From positions 1 through 64,000 of the forward strand of contig NZ_QICJ01000013.1 of NCBI RefSeq assembly GCF_003201105.1: 64,000 nucleotides of DNA. The letters run 5' to 3'. The notes below the pieces were generated by a model. That model had not been told where the DNA came from. It worked only from the letters and a program-made list of their open reading frames with translations, and did no database searches. The position numbers were made by a program, and so were the translations under genes. This DNA comes from Dyella sp. AtDHG13. GTDB taxonomy: Bacteria > Pseudomonadota > Gammaproteobacteria > Xanthomonadales > Rhodanobacteraceae. This document shows, piece by piece, positions 47,914 to 63,456 of the stretch. Each line of letters opens with the position of its first letter. Within the stretch, counting starts at the first letter, position 1.

Positions 47914-48882
47914 ATGCGTACTGCCATGAAGCCGCTTGCCTGTTTCCTCGCCGCTTTCGCCGGTCTTTGCCTGGCCGGGCAGGCAGGCGCACAGGACCAT
48001 CCGAGGTTCGATATCGTCAAGGGCCAGCTGCAGCAACGCGCGAATGCCGCCCTGGCCCTGATGGGTTATCTGCAGACGCCGGACGTCACCTCGGGCGCGT
48101 TGTCCATCAGGGATTCCAGTACCGGCAACCCCGCGTTCAACAACTCCTCGCTGGGCGGCGGCTTTGTCCTCAGTGACAGCGTGCCGATCTACATGGAAGG
48201 CACGGTCGGCTACTCGCGCTACGACCCGCGCTTCGTCGCCAGCAACGGCCAGGAACAGCGCGAGCTGCCCACCCGCTGGAACGACGTGGTCGCCACCGCC
48301 GGCATCGGCTGGAGTTTCCAGGTGACGCGCGACTTCGCGATCATCCCCATCATCAATGGCAGCTACGGTGTCGTGAAAAGCGATGCCTCGCTGGGCAGTC
48401 TCTACATCGAACGCAACACCAACCTCAACCTGGAGTTTCTCGCCAACGGCCACCTGGACGCGGCGGGCGCGGGCGGTTCGCTGCTGCTGTCGTACGACCA
48501 TGTGGCGGAGAAATACGAGGGAGAAATACAGCTGCGTTATACGGACATCTATACGCACAGCGTCAACAACTCCTCGCGCGTGGTGCGCGGCAGTTCGCGC
48601 AACAACAACCTCAGCCTGTGGTCCCGCTACCGCGCCCCTACGGGCATGCATGCGCTGGATCGGCCGGTGCGCTACGTGCTGGAGTACGCGCGCACCGACT
48701 ACTTCGGCAACGAGGCCAAGGTGATCCAGGTGAACCACCTCAATTCGCTGGGCGTGGGCCTGGAGCTGGATACCAGCAAATACCATCCGCTGTGGATCAC
48801 CCGCGCCCGCGCGGTGGTGCGCTATGTATTCGCGCCCGGCGTGCAGGGCGTGTCGCTGGGCCTGGCGGTGACGTTTGGCTGA
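47914..48882 (+). CDS. Outer-membrane beta-barrel protein
   Basis: A 322-residue exported protein with a signal peptide (LACFLAAFAGLCLAGQAGAQ). It is rich in alternating hydrophobic strands with aromatic girdles and many Gly/Asn turns (for example TVGYSRYDPRFVASNGQEQRELP and GGSLLLSYDHVAEKYEGEIQLRY), ending in FG. It looks like a 10-12-strand barrel, but I do not recognise a named family. The ATG at 47914 is an alternative to ATG 47926, both before the signal sequence. Context gives no function. Confidence 0.65.
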   Translation: MRTAMKPLACFLAAFAGLCLAGQAGAQDHPRFDIVKGQLQQRANAALALMGYLQTPDVTSGALSIRDSSTGNPAFNNSSLGGGFVLSDSVPIYMEGTVGYSRYDPRFVASNGQEQRELPTRWNDVVATAGIGWSFQVTRDFAIIPIINGSYGVVKSDASLGSLYIERNTNLNLEFLANGHLDAAGAGGSLLLSYDHVAEKYEGEIQLRYTDIYTHSVNNSSRVVRGSSRNNNLSLWSRYRAPTGMHALDRPVRYVLEYARTDYFGNEAKVIQVNHLNSLGVGLELDTSKYHPLWITRARAVVRYVFAPGVQGVSLGLAVTFG

Positions 48883-54292: not shown

Positions 54293-54568
54293 TTACTCCT
54301 CGCCGTCTTCCTCTTCTTCCTCTTCTTCTTCGTCCTCGAAGGTTTCCAGCTCTTCCACACGGAGGAAGTTCGGCGCGGCATCGGCAAAGCTGATCTGCTT
54401 GCCGTTCACCAGCATCGGGCGCACGTCACGGCGGGTGGCGCCGCCCTGCGCGGACTCCACCAGGGCGAAGCACACGAGCGCTTCGGCGCTCTCGTCGCCG
54501 TTCTCGTCGAACACGGCAACCCAACCCGTGGCGGGCATGATCTGGATGATGGTTTCTTGCGCGGACAT
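54293..54568 (-). CDS. Small hypothetical protein with polyglutamate tail
   Basis: A 91-residue soluble protein. The first 75 residues look folded, with strands such as GWVAVFDENGDESAEALVCFALVE and RPMLVNGKQISF. The last part is an almost pure Glu run (LETFEDEEEEEEEE DGEE pattern) encoded by a low-complexity CTT/CTC track. It is followed by a strong terminator. No family was recognised; the acidic tail could bind a basic partner or act as a nucleic-acid mimic (inference). Confidence 0.7.
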   Translation of the reverse strand: MSAQETIIQIMPATGWVAVFDENGDESAEALVCFALVESAQGGATRRDVRPMLVNGKQISFADAAPNFLRVEELETFEDEEEEEEEEDGEE

Positions 54569-54865
54569 GGCAACTCCGGTTGGTCAAACGCGGAAGCTTG
54601 CCGGCTGCACGGCGGGACTGCAAGCGAACATTTTGTGACCGCCAGGGGAACGCCCGTGGCCGCTTTCCGCCACCCGTTGCAGGGAGGCGACAAGCACGGG
54701 CGCTTGCCGGAGAGTCGAGTGTCGCCAGCGCCCATGGTGGCGCGGCCGCCGGGTCGTCTACGTAAATATACTGGCCTCAGTCTGCAATCTTACGGAGGCG
54801 GTCCCGCCGCCCTAAGTGCTTTCATCTGGCCTACCCGCAACAACGTTTTAGCCAGGAGTATGCAC

Positions 54866-56374
54866 ATGCGCGCCGGTTCGATCGCCTCACGAATTTCCCC
54901 TGCCTTGCTTGCTGCCGCGGTAAGCATGGCCTTCAGCATGCCGCTGTGGGCAGACAACGCCCAGCCGAAGGGCAATGTGACCGTTCTGGGGGCGACGACG
55001 CCCGGCCAGGTGGCGGGCCCCTTGGCGGGCGGGCGCATCACCGAGGAATACGCGCGGCAGATGGCGCGCACGCTCTACGTATGGGCATGGCCCATGGTCA
55101 ACATCTACAACCGCCGCGTGACGTTCACGCCACTGAAGGAGCCGGGCAGGCTGGGTGGCGCGCTTCCCGCATCGCCTCTCAACCGGGTCAGCATGCTCAC
55201 CGACTATGTGACGCCGACGGAGCGCGATGTCGCTTGCCCGAATCAGGACGTCGTGTACGGTGGTGGCCCGCTGGCGCTCGACATCGAGCCCGTCATCGTG
55301 CAGGTCCCGGATTTCGGCAAGCGTTTCTGGGTTTACCAAGTGGTGGATCTGCGCACCGATAGCTTTGCCAACCTGGGCAAGATGTACGGTACCAAGCCGG
55401 GCTTCTACATGCTGGTGGGCCCGCACTGGAAGGGCACGGTGCCCAAGGGCATCACCCAGGTTTTCCGCGCGCAGTCCAATACGGGCTTCATCATCCCGCG
55501 CGTGTTCATGGACGATACGGCGGCGGACCGCGAGGCCATCCAGCCGCTGATTTCGCAGATCAACGTGTATCCGCTGTCGCAGTACGACGGCAAGATGAAG
55601 CACATGGACTGGAGCAAGACGCCTTCGTTCCCGGCGCCCCCGCCCGCGGCAAACGGCGCCGAGCGGCCGGTGGTCATCCCCGACAAGTTCTTTGACGAGC
55701 TGCCCGCGGTGCTCGCGGACGCGGAACCGCTGCCCGGCGAGGAGGTGCTTTACGCCCAGGCGCGGGGATTGCTCGCGGCGGCCAAGGCCGACCCGGCGAT
55801 CAAGAAGGCCATCGACGAGGAGGCGGCCAGGACCGAGAAGGACGTGGTGGCCCCGCTGTTGCAGTTCCACAGGTTCGGCGTTCCGCTGCCGTACGGCTGA
55901 ACGGTGGCGTCCAACGGCGCCCAGTTCGGCACGGACTATTTCACGCGCACGGCCGTGGCGCGCTCCAACATCTTCGTCAACAAGCCGAACGAAGCGTCGT
56001 ACTTCTATCAGGACTTCGACGGCAACGGCACGCGCCTTGGCGGCGGCAAGCGCTACACCGTCACCTTTGCCAAGGGCACGCCGCCGGTGAAGGGCTTCTG
56101 GTCCATCACCATGTACGACGCGCAGCATTTCTTCGTGCCCAACGCGCTCAACCGCTACTCGCTGGGCACCAAGAACAAGGACCTGAAGCTCAACGACGAC
56201 GGCTCCGTCACCCTGTACGTGCAGCCGGACGAGCCGAGCGATCCGGCCAAGCGCGCCAACTGGCTGCCGTCGCCCAAGGAGGGCGATTTCTCGCTTTACA
56301 TCCGTACCTATTGGCCCGACGACTCGGTACTGAAGGGTCAGTGGACGCCGCCCGCCGTACAGCCGGCGGCGTGA
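54866..56374 (+). pseudogene. DUF1254/DUF1214 protein interrupted by an in-frame TGA
   Basis: A DUF1254 protein starts at ATG 54866 (signal peptide SPALLAAAVSMAFSMPLWA) and carries the domain YARQMARTLYVWAWPMVNIYN through VVALPLLQFHRF-type end at about residue 340. Its frame hits TGA at 55898-55900 inside a PLPYG-stop-TVASNGAQ context, where homologues have Trp (TGG). The frame continues without further stop to 56374 as an intact DUF1214 half (FVNKPNEASYFYQDFDGNG, FWSITMYDAQHFFVPN). Total length, about 502 codons, equals the paralogue downstream. It is either a recent nonsense mutation or read-through. Confidence 0.85.
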
Positions 56375-56501: not shown

Positions 56502-57995
56502 TTACTTGATCGGCTCCAGATCGCTCGGCCGCCAGGTCTGGTCGAAGAAGGTCTTCGTGGGTGCGTAGAGACGCACGTTGGCGAAGAATCCCTTGCCGGG
56601 AACCGTCCTGATCCAGTTCTTGCCCGGGCCGGGAGAGGTCGGGCCAAAGTAGATGTCGTACGAGCCGTCGGCATTGGCGACGGGCTTGTCCATCTTGTTG
56701 AGCGACGGGAACGGCTGGCCGTTGTCCAGGCCGGCGCCGTTTTCCGGGTTGTAGGCCGTGACCGACCAGAACAGCTTGGCGGGAATGTTGGCGGGCAGGT
56801 TGAGCTTGTAGCTCTTCTCGCCCCGCAGGGGTTCGCCCTTGGCGTCGAAGAACGTCGTGGGATACTTCGCGCCCATGCCCTCCATGTTGAGGAACATGGC
56901 CGGGCTGGTGGAGTACGCGTACGTGAAGTAGGACGCCTGGTGATTGATATCCGTGTACGAGTCGTAGCCGAACTCGTCGTTGGTCACCGGCAGACCCGGC
57001 ACCCACTGGCGGTCGGTGTAGTAGCGCCCGGAGTGCGTCATCAGCGCGTAGCCCATGCGATGCGCGGTCTTGGCGGCGAGATCCAGCATCTTCTTCATTT
57101 TCTCGTCGGGCTGGAACGGCTTGCCTTTGATGATGCCCAGTTCGGCCGCCATGCCGCGGAACTGGAAATCCGCCGGGTCAACGTATTCGTGCTGGATGAA
57201 GCGGTCATACATGGCGAATGCCTCGCCATCCGTGGGATAGAGCAGGTTGGCCGCGATCTTCGAGCCGTCCGGGAATTGCATCGGCTTGGCCGAATCCTTC
57301 TTGCCGAGCGGATAGATGCGCGTCTGCTCCATGACCTTCACCGGGGCTTCGAGCTGCTTGGGATCCTTGAAGAAGCCGCGCCAGAACACGAACACGCCGT
57401 AAGTGCGCGAGCGATACACCAGGTAGCCCTGCGGAACGTCGCCCTTGTAGTCCGGCGGCAGGATCAGGTACCTGGCGCCCTTGCCCTTGTCCGGACCGAC
57501 CAGGCCCACGTCGCCGCACCAGACCTTGCCTTCGATCTCGCCCTCGGAACAGATGGGCCGCTGGCGGTAGTCATCCAGAATGCCCTGCAGGCCCTGCGGG
57601 GCCTCGATGACCAGCGGGCCGTCTTCCTTCAGGTCGAGGAAGCCCAGCGCGTAGATGACGTCCGAATTGGGCGTGGTGATCAGCGTCTTGGCGTTGAGTC
57701 GTTCCTTGAAGATGGTCAGGACGTTGTAGCCCTTGCCATAGTATTTCTCGGCGCCTTCCTTCATGCCGTACATGTTGATGGACGGCAGCGCCCACAGGTA
57801 AAGCTGGACGGCGCGCTGGAACTGCAGCTCGTCCATCAGGGTCTGCGTGTCCTCCTTGGAAATCTGTGCCTCGACGTACGGAATGTTGGCCAGCTTTTCG
57901 TAGTGGCTGCCGGAATCCTGCGCCATGACCATGGCCGGTGCAGCCGCCGCAAGCAGGCTTGCGAGCATGGATGGCAGGAACGATCTTTTGAGCAT
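56502..57995 (-). CDS. Exported DUF1254/DUF1214 protein
   Basis: A 497-residue exported protein with signal peptide (LASLLAAAAPAMVMAQ). The DUF1254 domain (about 60-330) includes FQRAVQLYLWALPSINMYGM and KTLITTPNSDVIYALGFLDLKEDGP. The DUF1214 domain (about 370-495) includes FLNMEGMGAKYPTTFFDAKGEPLRGEKSYKL and LFWSVTAYNPENG. It is a complete paralogue of the interrupted gene at 54.9 kb, convergent with it. Function is unestablished. Confidence 0.92.
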   Translation of the reverse strand: MLKRSFLPSMLASLLAAAAPAMVMAQDSGSHYEKLANIPYVEAQISKEDTQTLMDELQFQRAVQLYLWALPSINMYGMKEGAEKYYGKGYNVLTIFKERLNAKTLITTPNSDVIYALGFLDLKEDGPLVIEAPQGLQGILDDYRQRPICSEGEIEGKVWCGDVGLVGPDKGKGARYLILPPDYKGDVPQGYLVYRSRTYGVFVFWRGFFKDPKQLEAPVKVMEQTRIYPLGKKDSAKPMQFPDGSKIAANLLYPTDGEAFAMYDRFIQHEYVDPADFQFRGMAAELGIIKGKPFQPDEKMKKMLDLAAKTAHRMGYALMTHSGRYYTDRQWVPGLPVTNDEFGYDSYTDINHQASYFTYAYSTSPAMFLNMEGMGAKYPTTFFDAKGEPLRGEKSYKLNLPANIPAKLFWSVTAYNPENGAGLDNGQPFPSLNKMDKPVANADGSYDIYFGPTSPGPGKNWIRTVPGKGFFANVRLYAPTKTFFDQTWRPSDLEPIK

Positions 57996-58411: not shown

Positions 58412-59026
58412 TCAGGGCGCCTTGCCCGCCTGCAGCTGCTGCACCACCGCGAGCGACTTGCTCACGTGTTCCTGCGGATGCAGGTGGTCGGCTTCGGAAG
58501 AGAACACCGCCGCGATCTTGCCGTCCTTGCCGATGACGAAGGTGACGCGCGAGATGAAACCGTGCTCGATGGCCTGGCCGCGCACGTCCTTCGCATCGGG
58601 CTCGGCAGCGGACATCTTCACGTCGTACTGGGCGGCGATCTTGCCTTGCGGGTCGGATGCCACCGGGAACTTGCCGGCGCAGTAGCTGGGATCGGCCGAG
58701 AAGGTGTTGAGCCGGTCGATGCTGTCGGCCGAGACGCCGATGATGGTGGCGCCCGCCGCGGCGAATTTCGCCGCCTCGGTGGCGAAGGCGTGCGCCTCGA
58801 TATCGCAGCCGCCGGTATAGGCGGAGGGGAAGAAGTAGACGATCACCGGGCCTTTCTTCAGCGCGTCCGCCAGCGAGAGGGTGAAGCTCTTGCCGTCATG
58901 GCTGGCCTGGGTGGTGAAGGCGGGCGCGGCGGTGCCCGGGCTGATGGCGGCGAACGCCGGCATGGCGAGCGTGGCGCCGCCCGCCAGTGCGAGGGCGGCG
59001 AGCGAACGGAGCAGGTGCTTTTTCAT
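58412..59026 (-). CDS. Exported peroxiredoxin
   Basis: A 204-residue AhpC/Bcp-class peroxiredoxin with a cleavable signal (LLRSLAALALAGGATLAMPAFA). The active site is PSAYTGGC (Pro67, Thr71, Cys74), with a further Cys at about 116 in YCAGKF that could resolve the disulfide. It reads FVIGKDGKIAAVF near the C-terminus. It reduces peroxides in the periplasm. The start at 59026 follows AAGGAC; the longer frame upstream has no signal. Confidence 0.9.
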   Translation of the reverse strand: MKKHLLRSLAALALAGGATLAMPAFAAISPGTAAPAFTTQASHDGKSFTLSLADALKKGPVIVYFFPSAYTGGCDIEAHAFATEAAKFAAAGATIIGVSADSIDRLNTFSADPSYCAGKFPVASDPQGKIAAQYDVKMSAAEPDAKDVRGQAIEHGFISRVTFVIGKDGKIAAVFSSEADHLHPQEHVSKSLAVVQQLQAGKAP

Positions 59027-59402
59027 CGTGGTGTCCTTGTGATGCGTAGGGAAGGTGGACGTGGCGGGGTGCGGGCAGGGCGGATGGAACAATCTATCGC
59101 TTGTGGCCGATGGCGTGACAGTGGAGCGCCGGCGACTGTCGAGCGGCGGTCGGTTATCCCGAAGGCGGAGCCGTCCAGGGCGCCTCACCCAACGTGAGTG
59201 CCGCCAGAGCCCACTTTCGGCGCAATTCTCACCAGGCCGTGAGCGCTACCATGCTTTGCAACAGGGGCTGGAAAGGTTTACGCCTGTATCGATCCAGCGC
59301 TTTTTTTCCAGATTTTCATAGGCGTCGGACAGCGCGGGGCGATCCTTTGCCATAGGCCGCTTGGGCGTGCTCAGGCGTCAGAAATTGCCCTAAGATCGCG
59401 GG

Positions 59403-60239
59403 ATGGAAAATCCTTCGACTCCGGCATCGACAGACGTCCTCCGCGGCAGCCTGGCCTGTGTCGGCCTGGGCATGACGCTCGGGTCCCATCTCACGCCGCT
59501 GGCGCGCAGCCACATCGTCCAGTCGGACGTGGTGTTCGCCGGTCTGTCCGACGGCATCGTGGAGGCATGGCTGCAACGCATGCATCCGGACGTGCGCAGC
59601 CTGCAGTCCTATTACCGCGAAGGAAAGTCGCGCCAGACCACCTACCGCGAATGGGTCGAGGTGATGATGACGGAGCTGCGCGCGGGCAAGCGCGTGTGCG
59701 GCGTGTTCTACGGACACCCCGGCATCTTTGCGTGGTCGCCGCACAAGGTCATCGAGACGGCGCGCGCCGAAGGCTATGCCGCGCACATGGAGCCAGGCAT
59801 CTCCGCCGAGGATTGCCTCTATGCGGATCTGGGCATCGATCCCGGCCGTTTCGGCTGCCAGCACTTCGAAGCCAGCCAGCTGCTGCTGTTCGAGCGCCGC
59901 CTCGACACCGCCGGATACGTGGTGCTGTGGCAGGTCGGGCACGTGGGCGACCGCTCGCTGGCACGCTTCACCACCGGCCCGGCCTATCGCCAGGTGCTGG
60001 TGGATCTGCTGAGCCAGGATTACCCGCTGGACCACGAAGTGATCGTCTACCGCGCGGCCACCTTGCCCATCCAGCAACCGCGCGTTCGCCGCGTGGCGCT
60101 GCGCGAGCTGCCGCATATCGAATTGCCTGCCGAGGAAACCGTGGTGTTGCCCCCGGCCAGGACGTTGACGCCCAATCGCGCCGTGCAGGCGCGACTGGCC
60201 GAGCTGGACGCGTTGGAAGAGGCCGGCGTGCCGGCCTGA
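59403..60239 (+). CDS. Split-borosin alpha-N-methyltransferase (SonM/OphMA-type)
   Basis: A 278-residue SAM-dependent methyltransferase with the tetrapyrrole-methylase fold. The N-terminal strand is LACVGLGMTLGSHLTPLARS and the SAM-binding segment is VCGVFYGHPGIFAWSPHKV (98-116), followed by MEPGISAEDCLYADLGIDPG (129-148). The residues corresponding to OphMA Tyr66, Arg72 and Tyr76 are Tyr71, Arg77 and Tyr81, with the same spacing. The whole protein aligns closely with SonM of split borosins, which N-methylate peptide backbones, rather than with corrin/porphyrin enzymes. The precursor gene lies 172 bp downstream. No clasp or core peptide is fused, so it is split. The RBS is weak. Confidence 0.85.
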   Translation: MENPSTPASTDVLRGSLACVGLGMTLGSHLTPLARSHIVQSDVVFAGLSDGIVEAWLQRMHPDVRSLQSYYREGKSRQTTYREWVEVMMTELRAGKRVCGVFYGHPGIFAWSPHKVIETARAEGYAAHMEPGISAEDCLYADLGIDPGRFGCQHFEASQLLLFERRLDTAGYVVLWQVGHVGDRSLARFTTGPAYRQVLVDLLSQDYPLDHEVIVYRAATLPIQQPRVRRVALRELPHIELPAEETVVLPPARTLTPNRAVQARLAELDALEEAGVPA

Positions 60240-60305
60240 CGCCGTAGAGTCGCTGTGCGTCGCGGAAGAGAGGGCCGCTGGCGCAATGGCGTGACGAGTG
60301 GACAC

Positions 60306-60323
60306 CGATGACGCCTGTCATCG
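60306..60323 (+). promoter_or_regulatory. Hairpin between the methyltransferase and precursor genes
   Basis: CGATGAC-gcct-GTCATCG is a perfect 7-bp stem in the 172-bp gap, followed by TGTTTCATC. It could reduce or process read-through so that precursor and enzyme are made in different amounts. There is no strong U-tract. Confidence 0.35.
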
Positions 60324-60411
60324 TGTTTCATCGACGATGTGCCGGCCTGGCACGTCGGGTGCTTGACGCAAACAGTGCAGGATCATCACAGTAGAACGAG
60401 GGGGATCATTT

Positions 60412-60714
60412 ATGACAGATACGATGGAGCTGCTTGAAGCCATCGGGCAGGACGCCTCGTTGCGTCATGCCACGGCCGACGCCCTGGGCGACATGCTCGA
60501 TACGGCAGAGGCTTCCGATGCATTGAAGGCCGCCGTGGCCTCCGGCGACAGCGCATGGCTCGCGCAGGAATTCGGCACCCGCGTGGTCTGCGGCAGCCAG
60601 AGTTCGCAGACCTATCCGGAAAAGGTGCCGCTGCCCACGCCGACGCCCGTGCCCGGCGAAGACGAGACGCCGGACACGCCCGAAGAGCCCGACGCGTCTC
60701 CGCGCAAGGGCTAG
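60412..60714 (+). CDS. Split-borosin precursor peptide (SonA-like)
   Basis: A 100-residue protein. Its helical N-terminal part contains IGQDASLRH (11-19) and a following helix, then AVASGDSAWLAQEFG (41-55). This matches the borosin-binding domain of SonA (LGQDAQL, then AVMTGDMEKL at like spacing). The C-terminal tail from about residue 56 starts with a short beta-prone segment TRVVCGSQ, probably the N-methylated core, then a Pro-rich and acidic stretch and ends with basic residues. GAGGGGG precedes the ATG. The next gene starts 9 bp downstream. Confidence 0.75.
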   Translation: MTDTMELLEAIGQDASLRHATADALGDMLDTAEASDALKAAVASGDSAWLAQEFGTRVVCGSQSSQTYPEKVPLPTPTPVPGEDETPDTPEEPDASPRKG

Positions 60715-60723
60715 GCCGCAGGC

Positions 60724-62499
60724 ATGCCACGGCCCTGGCACACGTACTGGTCCTGGCTCGCTGCGGCGAGCCTGGGCTTTTGCGTGTGGCTGGGCACGGC
60801 CTACGCCGTCGAGGGCATTGCCGATCCCGCCGCGTTTCTCCAGCAGACCGAGCGGGTGCGCACCACCGATCACCCGCGCTTTGTGCGCATGCTGGCGCAG
60901 ATCCACGATGAAGCGTCGCGGCTCAAGCCGGAAGAGCAGTGGTACCTGCGTTACCTCGATGCCTGGCAGGCCGCGTTCGAGGGCGACACCGGCCGCGCCA
61001 ACACCATGCTGCGCGACGTCATGGATCACTCCGGCGACGTGACGCTGGAGGCCAAGGCCACCGCCTTGCTCATGCACAACTACGGCCTGAGCAGCCGCTA
61101 CGAAGACGCCTTCGGGCTGGCCAACCAGCTGGCCTCGGACCTGCCCAAGGTCAGCGACAACCTGGCGCGCTTCATCGTGCTGTCCAACCTGTCGCAGCTG
61201 ATGATGTTCGCGGGCCAGAACGAGCTGGCCATCAAGTACGCGCGCATGATGGAAGACGCGCTGCCGCCCGGCGAAAGCCTGTGCAACCCGCTGTCGGTGG
61301 AAGTGGCCGCGCTCAACAACAGCGGCAAGCTCACCTCGTCCAGCCAGAAACTGCGCGAGGCCGTCGACGCCTGCGTGGAGGCCGGACAACCCGTGTTCGC
61401 CGATACGGTGCTGCTGATCAAAGGCGATCTCTATCTCAGCGAGGATCAGCCCGCCAAGGCGCTGGAGCTGATCCAGCGCATGCTGCCCAGCATCAATGCC
61501 AACCGCTACTACTCCCACATGCGCGCCGCGCAGGTGCAGTTGGCGCAGGCCTACGAAAAGCTGGGCGACGACGCCAATGCACGCAAGGCCGCGCTGACCG
61601 TGCTCTCCATGAGCGGGCAGGACGAAGTCAGCGAGTGGGTGAGGAACGCCTACGAAGTGCTCTACAAGGTAGAAAAGAAGCGCGGCAACGCCGTCGCCTC
61701 GCTGTCCTATTACGAGCGCTTCGTCGCGCAGGACAAGGGCTATCTCAACGACATCAGCGCCAGGGCGCTGGCCTATGCCACCGTGCAGCAGCATCTGCTC
61801 GCGCAGCGGCTGGAGGCCGAAGGGCTGAGCAAGCAGAACAACATCCTTAAGCTGCAGCAGGCGCTGGACACCAAGGCGGTGGAGACCAGCCGGCTCTACA
61901 TCGCGCTGCTGCTGGTGCTGATGGCGTCCATCGTGTTCTGGCTGTTCCGCATCAAGCGCTCGCAGCTGCGCTTCAAGATGCTGTCCTATCGCGACAGCCT
62001 GACCGGCATCTTCAATCACCAGCATTTCGTGAGCGAGGCCGAGCGCATGCTGCATGCGACGGAGCGGAAATCCGGCGCCGCGTGCCTGATCTCCATCGAC
62101 CTGGATCACTTCAAGCTGATCAACGACACGCATGGCCACGCCGTGGGCGACGTGGTGCTCAAGCACACCGTGACGCTGTGCCAGCGCCAGCTGCGCCCCA
62201 CCGACCTGTTCGGCCGGCTGGGCGGCGAGGAGTTCGGCATTCTGCTGCCCGACTGCACGCGCGAGCAGGGCGTGGCCATCGCCGACCGCATCCGCAAGGC
62301 CATCGAGGCCACGCCCGTGGACGGCGACGGCCGCCTGGTCACGTTCTCCGCCAGCATCGGCCTGGCCTCCACCGACAGCTCCGGCTACGAGCTGCAGCTG
62401 CTGCGCCGGGAGGCGGATGCCGCGCTCTATCGCGCCAAACGCACCGGACGCAACCGTGTGATCGCGGACAATCAGATGCCGGGGATGATCAGGGCCTGA
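60724..62499 (+). CDS. TPR-sensor diguanylate cyclase (GGDEF)
   Basis: A 591-residue protein. A signal/membrane segment (9-29) leads into a periplasmic helical array of TPR-like hairpins (about 50-385). A membrane helix at about 391-411 and a GGDEF domain follow. GGEEF is at 500-504, and RPTD five residues before it is an intact I-site for product inhibition. The catalytic domain has YRDSLTGIFNHQHF and LISIDLDHFKLINDTHGH. It makes c-di-GMP from GTP. The 9-bp gap to the precursor gene suggests co-transcription, which is unusual; a functional link is inferred. Confidence 0.9.
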   Translation: MPRPWHTYWSWLAAASLGFCVWLGTAYAVEGIADPAAFLQQTERVRTTDHPRFVRMLAQIHDEASRLKPEEQWYLRYLDAWQAAFEGDTGRANTMLRDVMDHSGDVTLEAKATALLMHNYGLSSRYEDAFGLANQLASDLPKVSDNLARFIVLSNLSQLMMFAGQNELAIKYARMMEDALPPGESLCNPLSVEVAALNNSGKLTSSSQKLREAVDACVEAGQPVFADTVLLIKGDLYLSEDQPAKALELIQRMLPSINANRYYSHMRAAQVQLAQAYEKLGDDANARKAALTVLSMSGQDEVSEWVRNAYEVLYKVEKKRGNAVASLSYYERFVAQDKGYLNDISARALAYATVQQHLLAQRLEAEGLSKQNNILKLQQALDTKAVETSRLYIALLLVLMASIVFWLFRIKRSQLRFKMLSYRDSLTGIFNHQHFVSEAERMLHATERKSGAACLISIDLDHFKLINDTHGHAVGDVVLKHTVTLCQRQLRPTDLFGRLGGEEFGILLPDCTREQGVAIADRIRKAIEATPVDGDGRLVTFSASIGLASTDSSGYELQLLRREADAALYRAKRTGRNRVIADNQMPGMIRA

Positions 62500-62532
62500 G
62501 CGCCTTCAACATCTCGCGTGTGCGATTGGCTC

Positions 62533-62672
62533 CCTCACCGTCATTCCGGCGCAGGCCGGAATCCAGTGGCCTCGGGACACGGTTTTCGCTGAAGAGCCCA
62601 CGGCTTTGACGTTACGCGATAACCGCACACGACCGTCACTGGATTCCGGCCTGCGCCGGAATGACGGTGAGG
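62533..62672. repeat. 36-bp perfect inverted repeat element
   Basis: Positions 62533-62568 and 62637-62672 are perfect reverse complements (core GGAATCCAGTG/CACTGGATTCC), with a 68-bp spacer. The core resembles the inner part of the 19.8-kb element. Its stem lies just after the diguanylate cyclase gene and may act as a terminator. Confidence 0.85.
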
Positions 62673-62745
62673 GGAATGAGCCTCACGGGATCGTGACAGG
62701 CTTCGACGCACACAAGCGCCCCGTCGCGACCCGCCGCTTCCGCGC

Positions 62746-63456
62746 TCAGCTACCGTAATCCAGCTTCGGATACCAATCCGTGCCGCGTCCCTCGGGCACG
62801 CAGTCCAGGATGGTCCAGATCGGCATGAGGTCAGGTGCGCCGCGCGGGTCCTGGCCGGGGTCGGCGGTGGCCATGCCCATCTCGCCGGCCCAGAACAGGC
62901 GGATATGGCCGTCGCGCCGGGTGAAGACGCAGAAGGCCGGCTCATCGTTGCCCTTGTCGTCGATGGCGCCGTAGTCGCGGCTGAAATGGCCGTTCACGTC
63001 CGAATACAGCGGCAGATCCTTCCAGCCGCGCGATTGCTTGAAGGCGAGCAGCCGTTCGATGGGCGAGCGTGCGATCGCCGCCAGTGCGACGCGTTGCTGG
63101 ATGTCGCGCGCCTCGCCGTTCCATGCGCTCAGCAGCGACGTACACATGGGGCAGGGGCGTTCGCGTTGCGGGCCGAACATGTAGCTGTAGGTAACCAGGG
63201 TCTGCTTGTCGCCGAACAGGCCGGCGAAATCGATGGGACCGTGTTCGCCCATGAAGCGGTAGTCGCCGTTCACCTCGGGGCCGGGCGGCAGGGCGCGGCG
63301 TTGTTCGGCCACGCGCTCGATATGGCGGCGCAGTTCGATTTCCTCGGCGAGCAGGGCGTTGCGGGCGCGGCGGTAGTCGGCGCTTTCGCCAGCAAAGGTG
63401 ACGCCGTTGCGCTTCACCAGCTCGGCGGCGGGAACCAGGTTGGGGGCTTGGGACAT
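62746..63456 (-). CDS. DUF899 (thioredoxin-like) family protein
   Basis: A 236-residue thioredoxin-fold protein of the DUF899 family. It has the segment LVTYSYMFGPQRERPCPMCTSLLSAWNG at about 82-109 with a CxxC motif, then SRGWKDLPLYSDVNGHFSRDYGA. It ends in the DWYPKLDYG motif seen in the family. It may act as a dithiol redox protein, but biochemical function is unestablished. It is divergent from the next gene. Confidence 0.9.
   Translation of the reverse strand: MSQAPNLVPAAELVKRNGVTFAGESADYRRARNALLAEEIELRRHIERVAEQRRALPPGPEVNGDYRFMGEHGPIDFAGLFGDKQTLVTYSYMFGPQRERPCPMCTSLLSAWNGEARDIQQRVALAAIARSPIERLLAFKQSRGWKDLPLYSDVNGHFSRDYGAIDDKGNDEPAFCVFTRRDGHIRLFWAGEMGMATADPGQDPRGAPDLMPIWTILDCVPEGRGTDWYPKLDYGS

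Follow-up and report, generated by a model that had tools for sequence, protein, structure and literature searches.

In the type IV split borosin system of Shewanella oneidensis, the methyltransferase SonM and its precursor SonA are encoded by separate genes, the precursor consisting of a leader with a five-helix borosin-binding domain (BBD) followed by the core, and Tyr58, Arg67 and Tyr71 being the named active-site residues of the enzyme; in the consulted excerpt of PMC8429565, none of the type IV borosin pathways had by then been tied to a final natural product, and a sensor-cyclase bearing tetratricopeptide repeats (TPR) is not named as a partner. A sensor of the latter kind has been described in Vibrio vulnificus, where RcbB carries an N-terminal TPR region reported to repress its C-terminal GGDEF cyclase domain, holding it inactive until a partner relieves it (excerpt of PMC12282931); predicted diguanylate cyclases (DGCs) of Vibrio parahaemolyticus with periplasmic TPR regions, whose partners are given as unidentified, are cited in the same excerpt. 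The present work concerns a locus at positions 59403-62499 of a 64,000-nucleotide stretch of DNA from Dyella sp. AtDHG13 (the window, meaning that whole stretch; genome of 5.1 Mb), in which three plus-strand open reading frames (ORFs) encode a methyltransferase (MT), a precursor and a DGC, and whose nearest named relatives are also Dyella (the best four MT matches are 83-86% identical). As far as sequence tells, MT and precursor would constitute a type IV split borosin by anatomy, and their coupling to a TPR-GGDEF protein is, judging from gene order in relatives, not a matter of chance and conserved far beyond it. The reading put forward here, in which we place about even confidence, is that the N-methylated core would serve as ligand for a periplasmic TPR receptor encoded next door, the whole amounting to a minimal peptide-signalling cassette.

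The first gene of the locus encodes the enzyme, and the following elements of it can be delineated:

59403 to 60239, plus strand: SonM-type alpha-N-methyltransferase of TP_methylase fold, 278 aa (Pfam PF00590, E=8.8e-22; PDB match to SonM 7ltc)
59613 to 59645, plus strand: catalytic codons for Tyr71 (59613-59615), Arg77 (59631-59633) and Tyr81 (59643-59645), from the alignment to SonM
59709 to 59723, plus strand: codons of the YGHPG loop (sequence and SonM alignment)

Among solved structures, the closest relative of the MT is SonM (7ltc, E=5.3e-73, 249 bits, phmmer against the PDB), with the OphMA-type enzymes next (1e-44 to 3e-48), and in the phmmer alignment the window residues Tyr71, Arg77 and Tyr81 fall on SonM Tyr58, Arg67 and Tyr71. 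Comparison was made with 80 MT loci, the best 80 of 88 confirmed, which are all closely related to the window MT; the window and the MTs of these relative loci give 84 near MT sequences, every one of which keeps the three catalytic residues, as do 48 of 49 MTs from distant loci. Within the loop, all 84 near and all 49 far sequences keep G104 and H105, and P106 is kept in 83/84 and 45/49. Both the active-site residues and the loop had been named in a sequence-only reading of this DNA, and the residues are exactly where it placed them. The rival view, which makes the MT a methyltransferase of corrins or porphyrins and leaves the small ORF beside it unconnected, draws on the Pfam and NCBIfam labels, which are of tetrapyrrole-methylase type alone (the Pfam label is 'TP_methylase' only). 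It was rejected on the PDB scores, the best corrin enzyme reaching 19 bits (E=0.0078) against 249 for SonM, and the retained borosin catalytic residues and the precursor's match to SonA also speak against it, so that its probability is practically nil; on these scores, the MT falls with SonM rather than with the corrin and porphyrin methyltransferases.

The second gene encodes the precursor peptide, which is divided as follows:

60412 to 60714, plus strand: split-borosin precursor, 100 aa (ORF, SonA profile match, Ka/Ks)
60412 to 60570, plus strand: BBD, residues 1-53, five predicted helices (SonA match, AlphaFold2, Ka/Ks)
60580 to 60618, plus strand: predicted core, residues 57-69, with QSSQTYP (comparison of relatives; methylation register from SonA)
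60619 to 60711, plus strand: tail rich in Pro, Glu and Asp, predicted to be disordered (pLDDT blocks of 54-63)

A Pfam scan assigns the precursor to no family, and a profile built from 36 precursors matches SonA (7ltc_B, E=2.8e-5). The AlphaFold2 model has helices at residues 2-13, 15-18, 22-31, 36-44 and 47-53 (mean pLDDT 71.9, with a low-confidence tail), and its four matches to PDB structures at E<=10 are all SonA chains, albeit weak ones (E 3.4-9.4). The SonA-like borosin-binding helices that had been ascribed to this ORF are thus borne out by the profile match and by the five helices of the model. Against the nearest orthologue compared (L086), the ratio of nonsynonymous to synonymous substitution (Ka/Ks) is 0.22 over the whole gene and 0.07 over the BBD, the latter ranging from 0.07 to 0.18 across six comparisons; these low values indicate purifying selection, as would be expected of a real gene. 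The motif QSSQTxP lies 3' of the BBD in 7/7 chosen near sequences, while L008, outside that set, has QASQTFP. Methylation is predicted at about residues 60-66, within this motif, a register placed there because of L63 and I65 of SonA (excerpt of PMC8429565). The cores of relatives span polar to CCML-type sequences, and repeated core-like motifs in L047:5944-6210 (CCMLMPG..SCLLMSG), L075:5839-6141 (SAALMPAFSVALMAP) and L063:6045-6311 (CCMMLPATVCCMMLPG) suggest multi-core peptides. Like SonM/SonA, the window pair therefore comprises separate genes and proteins, a SonM/OphMA-type MT with the Tyr/Arg/Tyr residues and a five-helix BBD leader followed by a core, as expected of a type IV split borosin; it differs from SonM/SonA in its polar core (CGSQSSQTYP), its long Pro/acidic tail and the TPR sensor-cyclase beside the precursor (comparison with the excerpt of PMC8429565). 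Overall, the split-borosin part of the sequence-only reading is supported by the sequence tests run, namely the 249 bits to SonM, the SonA profile match and the retained residues.

The third gene encodes the sensor, whose elements are:

60724 to 62499, plus strand: TPR-GGDEF transmembrane diguanylate cyclase, 591 aa (Pfam, NCBIfam, alignment of relatives)
60724 to 60813, plus strand: signal-peptide-like N-terminus, AYA/VEG by inspection (translation; helix 6-26)
60826 to 61863, plus strand: TPR ectodomain, predicted periplasmic (TPR matches below Pfam cut-offs; alignment)
61888 to 61953, plus strand: transmembrane (TM) helix (TM-like segment before GGDEF in 85/85 relatives)
61969 to 62466, plus strand: GGDEF domain (Pfam; TIGR00254, E=9.1e-48)
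62194 to 62205, plus strand: I-site RPTD, five residues 5' of GGEEF (RxxD in 77/85 relatives)
62221 to 62235, plus strand: A-site GGEEF (invariant in 25/25; A-site intact in 85/85)

The 85 relatives are those GGDEF ORFs of L005-L084 that score at least 30 bits for the sensor, and 59 of them have a hydrophobic N-terminus above the cut-off. The signal-peptide-like N-terminus is followed by helical repeats (TPR) to about residue 320, a long helix, the TM segment and GGDEF; with A-site and I-site intact, the protein is a predicted diguanylate cyclase. C187 and C217 of the TPR part are invariant in 25/25 aligned relatives and would fit a periplasmic disulfide. A structure search returned only GGDEF-containing proteins among the matches listed and is uninformative on the TPR part. 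In the RRNPP receptors of Firmicutes, a TPR superhelix reads a peptide signal that is often encoded beside the receptor; these receptors sit in the cytoplasm, and the peptides that they recognise are re-imported and not N-methylated on the backbone. A receptor of that type (cytoplasmic TPR with helix-turn-helix or phosphatase output) was rejected for the window, whose sensor has a signal-peptide-like N-terminus, a TM helix and GGDEF. RcbB shares TPR and GGDEF with the window sensor, but its partner is the TPR protein RcbA and not the precursor of a ribosomally synthesised and post-translationally modified peptide (RiPP) (excerpt of PMC12282931). An RcbAB-type operon was rejected as well, the upstream neighbour being a BBD precursor and the downstream one an oppositely oriented DUF899 gene, and no TPR-only family is among those recurring within 5 kb at the 80 loci (ORFs of at least 90 aa). 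The V. parahaemolyticus DGCs also combine a periplasmic TPR region with GGDEF; borosin genes are not mentioned in that excerpt of PMC12282931.

At 74 of the 80 MT loci, a BBD precursor is followed by a same-strand GGDEF gene within 60 nt; in two further loci the contig breaks off within the sensor. Four do not fit, among them L048, whose contig ends soon after the MT, L063, where the GGDEF gene lies some 150 nt off, and L084, which has a pair of GGDEF genes; no precursor was found in L048 or L084. Starting from the sensor, a BBD precursor lies directly upstream of 107 of 125 sensor-part homologues in 97 family genomes, these homologues, which include several from single genomes, not being independent. 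An MT is present in the fetched stretch for 88 of the 107 pairs and absent from it for 19, one of these 19 (L165) being part of an array with its MT just beyond that stretch. Furthermore, MT (E<=1e-30) and sensor-DGC (E<=1e-8) are both found in the same 62 of the 97 genomes and neither in the same 35, a comparison made by eye from printed tables, and both states occur within single genera. Among ORFs of at least 90 aa, the families present in at least 10 of the 80 loci are the DGC, the MT, the precursor, an overlying minus-strand frame and an acetyltransferase (15 loci; GNAT by Pfam, L051). That relatives keep the precursor-sensor pairing suggests that the peptide is the sensor's signal. Tandem TPR-GGDEF arrays lie near one MT in L064, L022, L049, L056 and L155-L172, some copies being without a precursor of their own; the array of L064 (genome G022) comprises one MT and five sensor-DGCs, three of these with their own precursor upstream.

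The genome of the window encodes 22 GGDEF domains, two of them with a window-type sensor, and three BBD precursors at E<=0.1, in the window and on C6 and C16. The C16 precursor (L117:7261-7752, ~48261-48752) is directly 5' of the only other sensor-DGC; its frame is broken (it was read in two frames), and no MT lies near it within the fetched 15 kb. The C6 precursor has a more hydrophobic core end (LIAPQITQSIAVQLFAVQL), and its gene and the accompanying MT gene are convergent with a phage-type integrase gene; they are perhaps on a mobile island.

A class-wide search for the MT was positive in 9 of 369 genomes, among them that of the window and one from its family; the seven distant loci include two with TPR histidine kinases, and in one of these a TPR-GGDEF gene is present as well. 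In forty loci from the two orders to which these kinase loci belong, hand-picked for spread (38 from 70 positive genomes and 2 from 4), the neighbour of the pair is a GGDEF protein with TPR similarity in 22 cases (24 by eye), a TPR-kinase in 12 and TPR alone in 2; a receptor is missing from 4, or from 2 once L257 and L271 are counted by eye. Two loci that the script left as 'none', L257 (divergent MT, other strand) and L271 (two MTs), have a GGDEF gene beside the precursor by inspection; of these two, Pfam recognises TPR in L271 only, and in L257 the N-terminal region gives a match to the window sensor at 2e-6. In L267, TPR and GGDEF are in two separate ORFs, the TPR of L292 is weak (E=0.0027), and the GGDEF label of L288 was entered by hand from the Pfam result. 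In L282, a window-type sensor (97 bits over aa 37-378) is fused to HisKA, and the kinases of L247, L269 and L278 are weakly similar to the window sensor (E 2e-4 to 1e-8); L278 has the order precursor-TPR/kinase-MT-precursor-TPR/kinase, that is, two pairs around one MT. The profile missed the precursor in L279, L283, L284 and L286, where inspection finds an ORF of similar size with a SonA-like start between MT and receptor. Because these other orders place TPR-histidine kinases at the same position, the recurring partner is the TPR ectodomain or sensor and not c-di-GMP (cyclic di-GMP) as such, which would be one output; for the same reason, what is conserved can be read as the precursor-TPR pair, with interchangeable outputs. 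The link between peptide and second messenger suggested in the sequence-only reading consequently stands in that the TPR-GGDEF pairing is conserved beyond chance, and needs amending in that the partner is a TPR sensor, with kinases elsewhere.

Genes, domains and pairing are what the sequence provides; export, cleavage, binding and effect are the conjectural part of the scheme. The MT would bind the BBD of the precursor and methylate core backbone amides just 3' of it, at about residues 60-66. The core, possibly with its charged tail, would then be exported to the periplasm by some exporter and protease, where it would dock in the TPR groove of the adjacently encoded sensor, and binding would be relayed via the long helix and the TM segment to GGDEF, altering c-di-GMP output. 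In 71 sets with all three genes, the partial rank correlation of precursor and sensor given the MT is 0.58, and that of precursor and MT given the sensor 0.23; since the loci are related, and such tests tend to give low permutation p values, this co-divergence is supporting and not decisive.

A number of observations weigh against the ligand proposal. The window core is polar, unlike reported borosin cores, which are primarily hydrophobic (PMC11285071). The L061 locus, the fourth that does not fit, has three precursors and no GGDEF gene; 18 of the 125 sensor-DGCs are without an adjacent precursor, about ten of these being extra copies in tandem arrays by inspection; and most of the 12 kinases share the TPR class only, with no detectable similarity to the window sensor. 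Such a receptor is missing from five of the seven distant class-wide MT loci, from the MT loci L285 and L291, and from the second MT and precursor of the window's own genome (C6, L118:6643-9109), where the DGC is absent. Receptor-less MT loci, including this one of the two in the genome, favour the alternative that the borosin is secreted as an ordinary natural product (an antibiotic, a metallophore or the like), the peptide not being a ligand and the sensor-DGC controlling no more than when it is produced or the producer's way of life. Many characterised RiPPs are indeed secreted products, and in two of the five distant loci, L250:4523-5764 and L251:7898-8812, where no TPR receptor was found, the gene after the MT encodes an MFS transporter (Pfam), a possible export gene. 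We nevertheless consider this alternative rather unlikely, as precursor-DGC pairs persist without a nearby MT, the gene beside the sensor is usually the precursor and not the MT, and the output domain varies between orders while the precursor/TPR pairing stays.

A further difficulty is the route to a periplasmic receptor: none of 93 precursors bears a signal peptide (their strongest N-terminal hydrophobic window reaches 1.03), and among ORFs of at least 90 aa within 5 kb at the 80 loci, no recurring exporter or protease was found. These same negatives would suit a cytoplasmic protein switch, in which the BBD or tail of the precursor, methylated or not, would dock on the cytoplasmic portion of the DGC or kinase. 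Divergence of the precursor is correlated with that of the GGDEF domain as well (0.49 given the MT), so that the co-divergence favours the sensor part only modestly, and precursors before sensors bear charged tails. The outputs differ, however (GGDEF, HisKA or none), whereas the TPR part recurs, and by predicted topology the TPR part is outside the cytoplasm; in addition, the tails of L074 and L076 are lysine-rich and not acidic, and we judge a cytoplasmic switch to be improbable. Acidic residues have a median of 11 in 72 'adjacent' and 7 in 21 'non-adjacent' precursors (p=5.6e-4), a statistic that is not relied on because nine of the 21 (L023, L058, L059, L060, L074, L079-L081 and one of L082) were mis-sorted, either being in truth neighbours of a sensor gene or lying where the contig breaks off, and because of the L074 and L076 tails; the acidic tail was accordingly dropped as a sensor-facing feature. 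The precursors at L074:6320-6607 and L076:6323-6607 lie just 5' of a GGDEF gene and have basic tails rich in lysine, proline and alanine, with an acetyltransferase-like stretch in the upstream frame.

Within the locus, MT and precursor are separated by 172 bp, and the claimed 9-bp spacing between precursor and DGC is exact, counted from the precursor stop to the DGC ATG. Because this gap is only 9 bp, precursor and DGC are probably in one transcript. A probable translation signal precedes the precursor:

60399 to 60411, plus strand: probable ribosome-binding stretch AGGGGGATCATTT, directly 5' of the precursor (sequence reading)

Inspection of the strings upstream of 93 precursors finds AGGGG-like stretches common to many relatives. 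A simple scan of 59000-62700 gave no sigma-70-like promoter, the scan being uninformative. A weak terminator-like hairpin lies at 60306-60323, between MT and precursor; three such hairpins were found against 1.8 expected from shuffles, which nearly reach the observed frequency. The operon-like arrangement could also be taken to mean that the flow is reversed, the sensor and its c-di-GMP controlling peptide synthesis or methylation. No Rfam family reaches threshold in 58800-62800 and thus no known c-di-GMP riboswitch is present there, and MT-less orphan pairs and kinase outputs would be left unexplained; this direction of control seems very improbable.

Directly 3' of the DGC gene, a perfect 27-bp inverted repeat (62542-62568 and 62637-62663), present in two copies only in the window with up to 3 mismatches allowed, could be a transcript end or a REP-like element. 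A DUF899 thioredoxin-like gene lies downstream of the locus (62746-63456, minus strand) and an AhpC/TSA-type gene upstream (58412-59188, minus strand). Farther upstream, the DUF1254/DUF1214 genes at 54557-56374 and 56502-57995 are neighbours on opposite strands, the two domains of the former being split over adjacent ORFs (54557-55900 and 55904-56374) with a stop between.

The arrangement had been put forward as one not known to be characterised, which holds in part. The legend to Figure 1 of PMC11395268, on borosin types after Imani 2022, defines 'GGDEF' among the drawn domains, and on that account the association of peptide and GGDEF has been partly noted before; from this legend, a GGDEF-containing domain is drawn in at least one type, and a receptor or ligand role is not given in the excerpt. 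In the searched literature, this was the only paper in which borosin and GGDEF occurred together. The receptor reading was not found in the searched literature, and a partial search, which may have missed an earlier report, found nothing linking borosin with c-di-GMP, cyclic di-GMP or tetratricopeptide. The combination of borosin and 'histidine kinase' occurred in PMC9505594 only, in passages that are not on borosin loci. A TPR receptor with interchangeable outputs as recurring partner is therefore new relative to the searched literature, and not proven new.

Beyond the single locus, and with somewhat less than even confidence, these data may point to a widespread gammaproteobacterial signalling class, in which N-methylated ribosomal peptides would be read by adjacently encoded periplasmic TPR receptors with modular output (c-di-GMP, histidine-kinase relay or none), one MT serving several pairs. 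If the precursor does yield the ligand of the sensor, the question of what type IV borosins produce would become directly testable, with the precursor-receptor pairs that have no local MT as ready natural controls. TPR-type diguanylate cyclases and kinases would gain a candidate ligand, and backbone N-methylation would gain a role in signalling.

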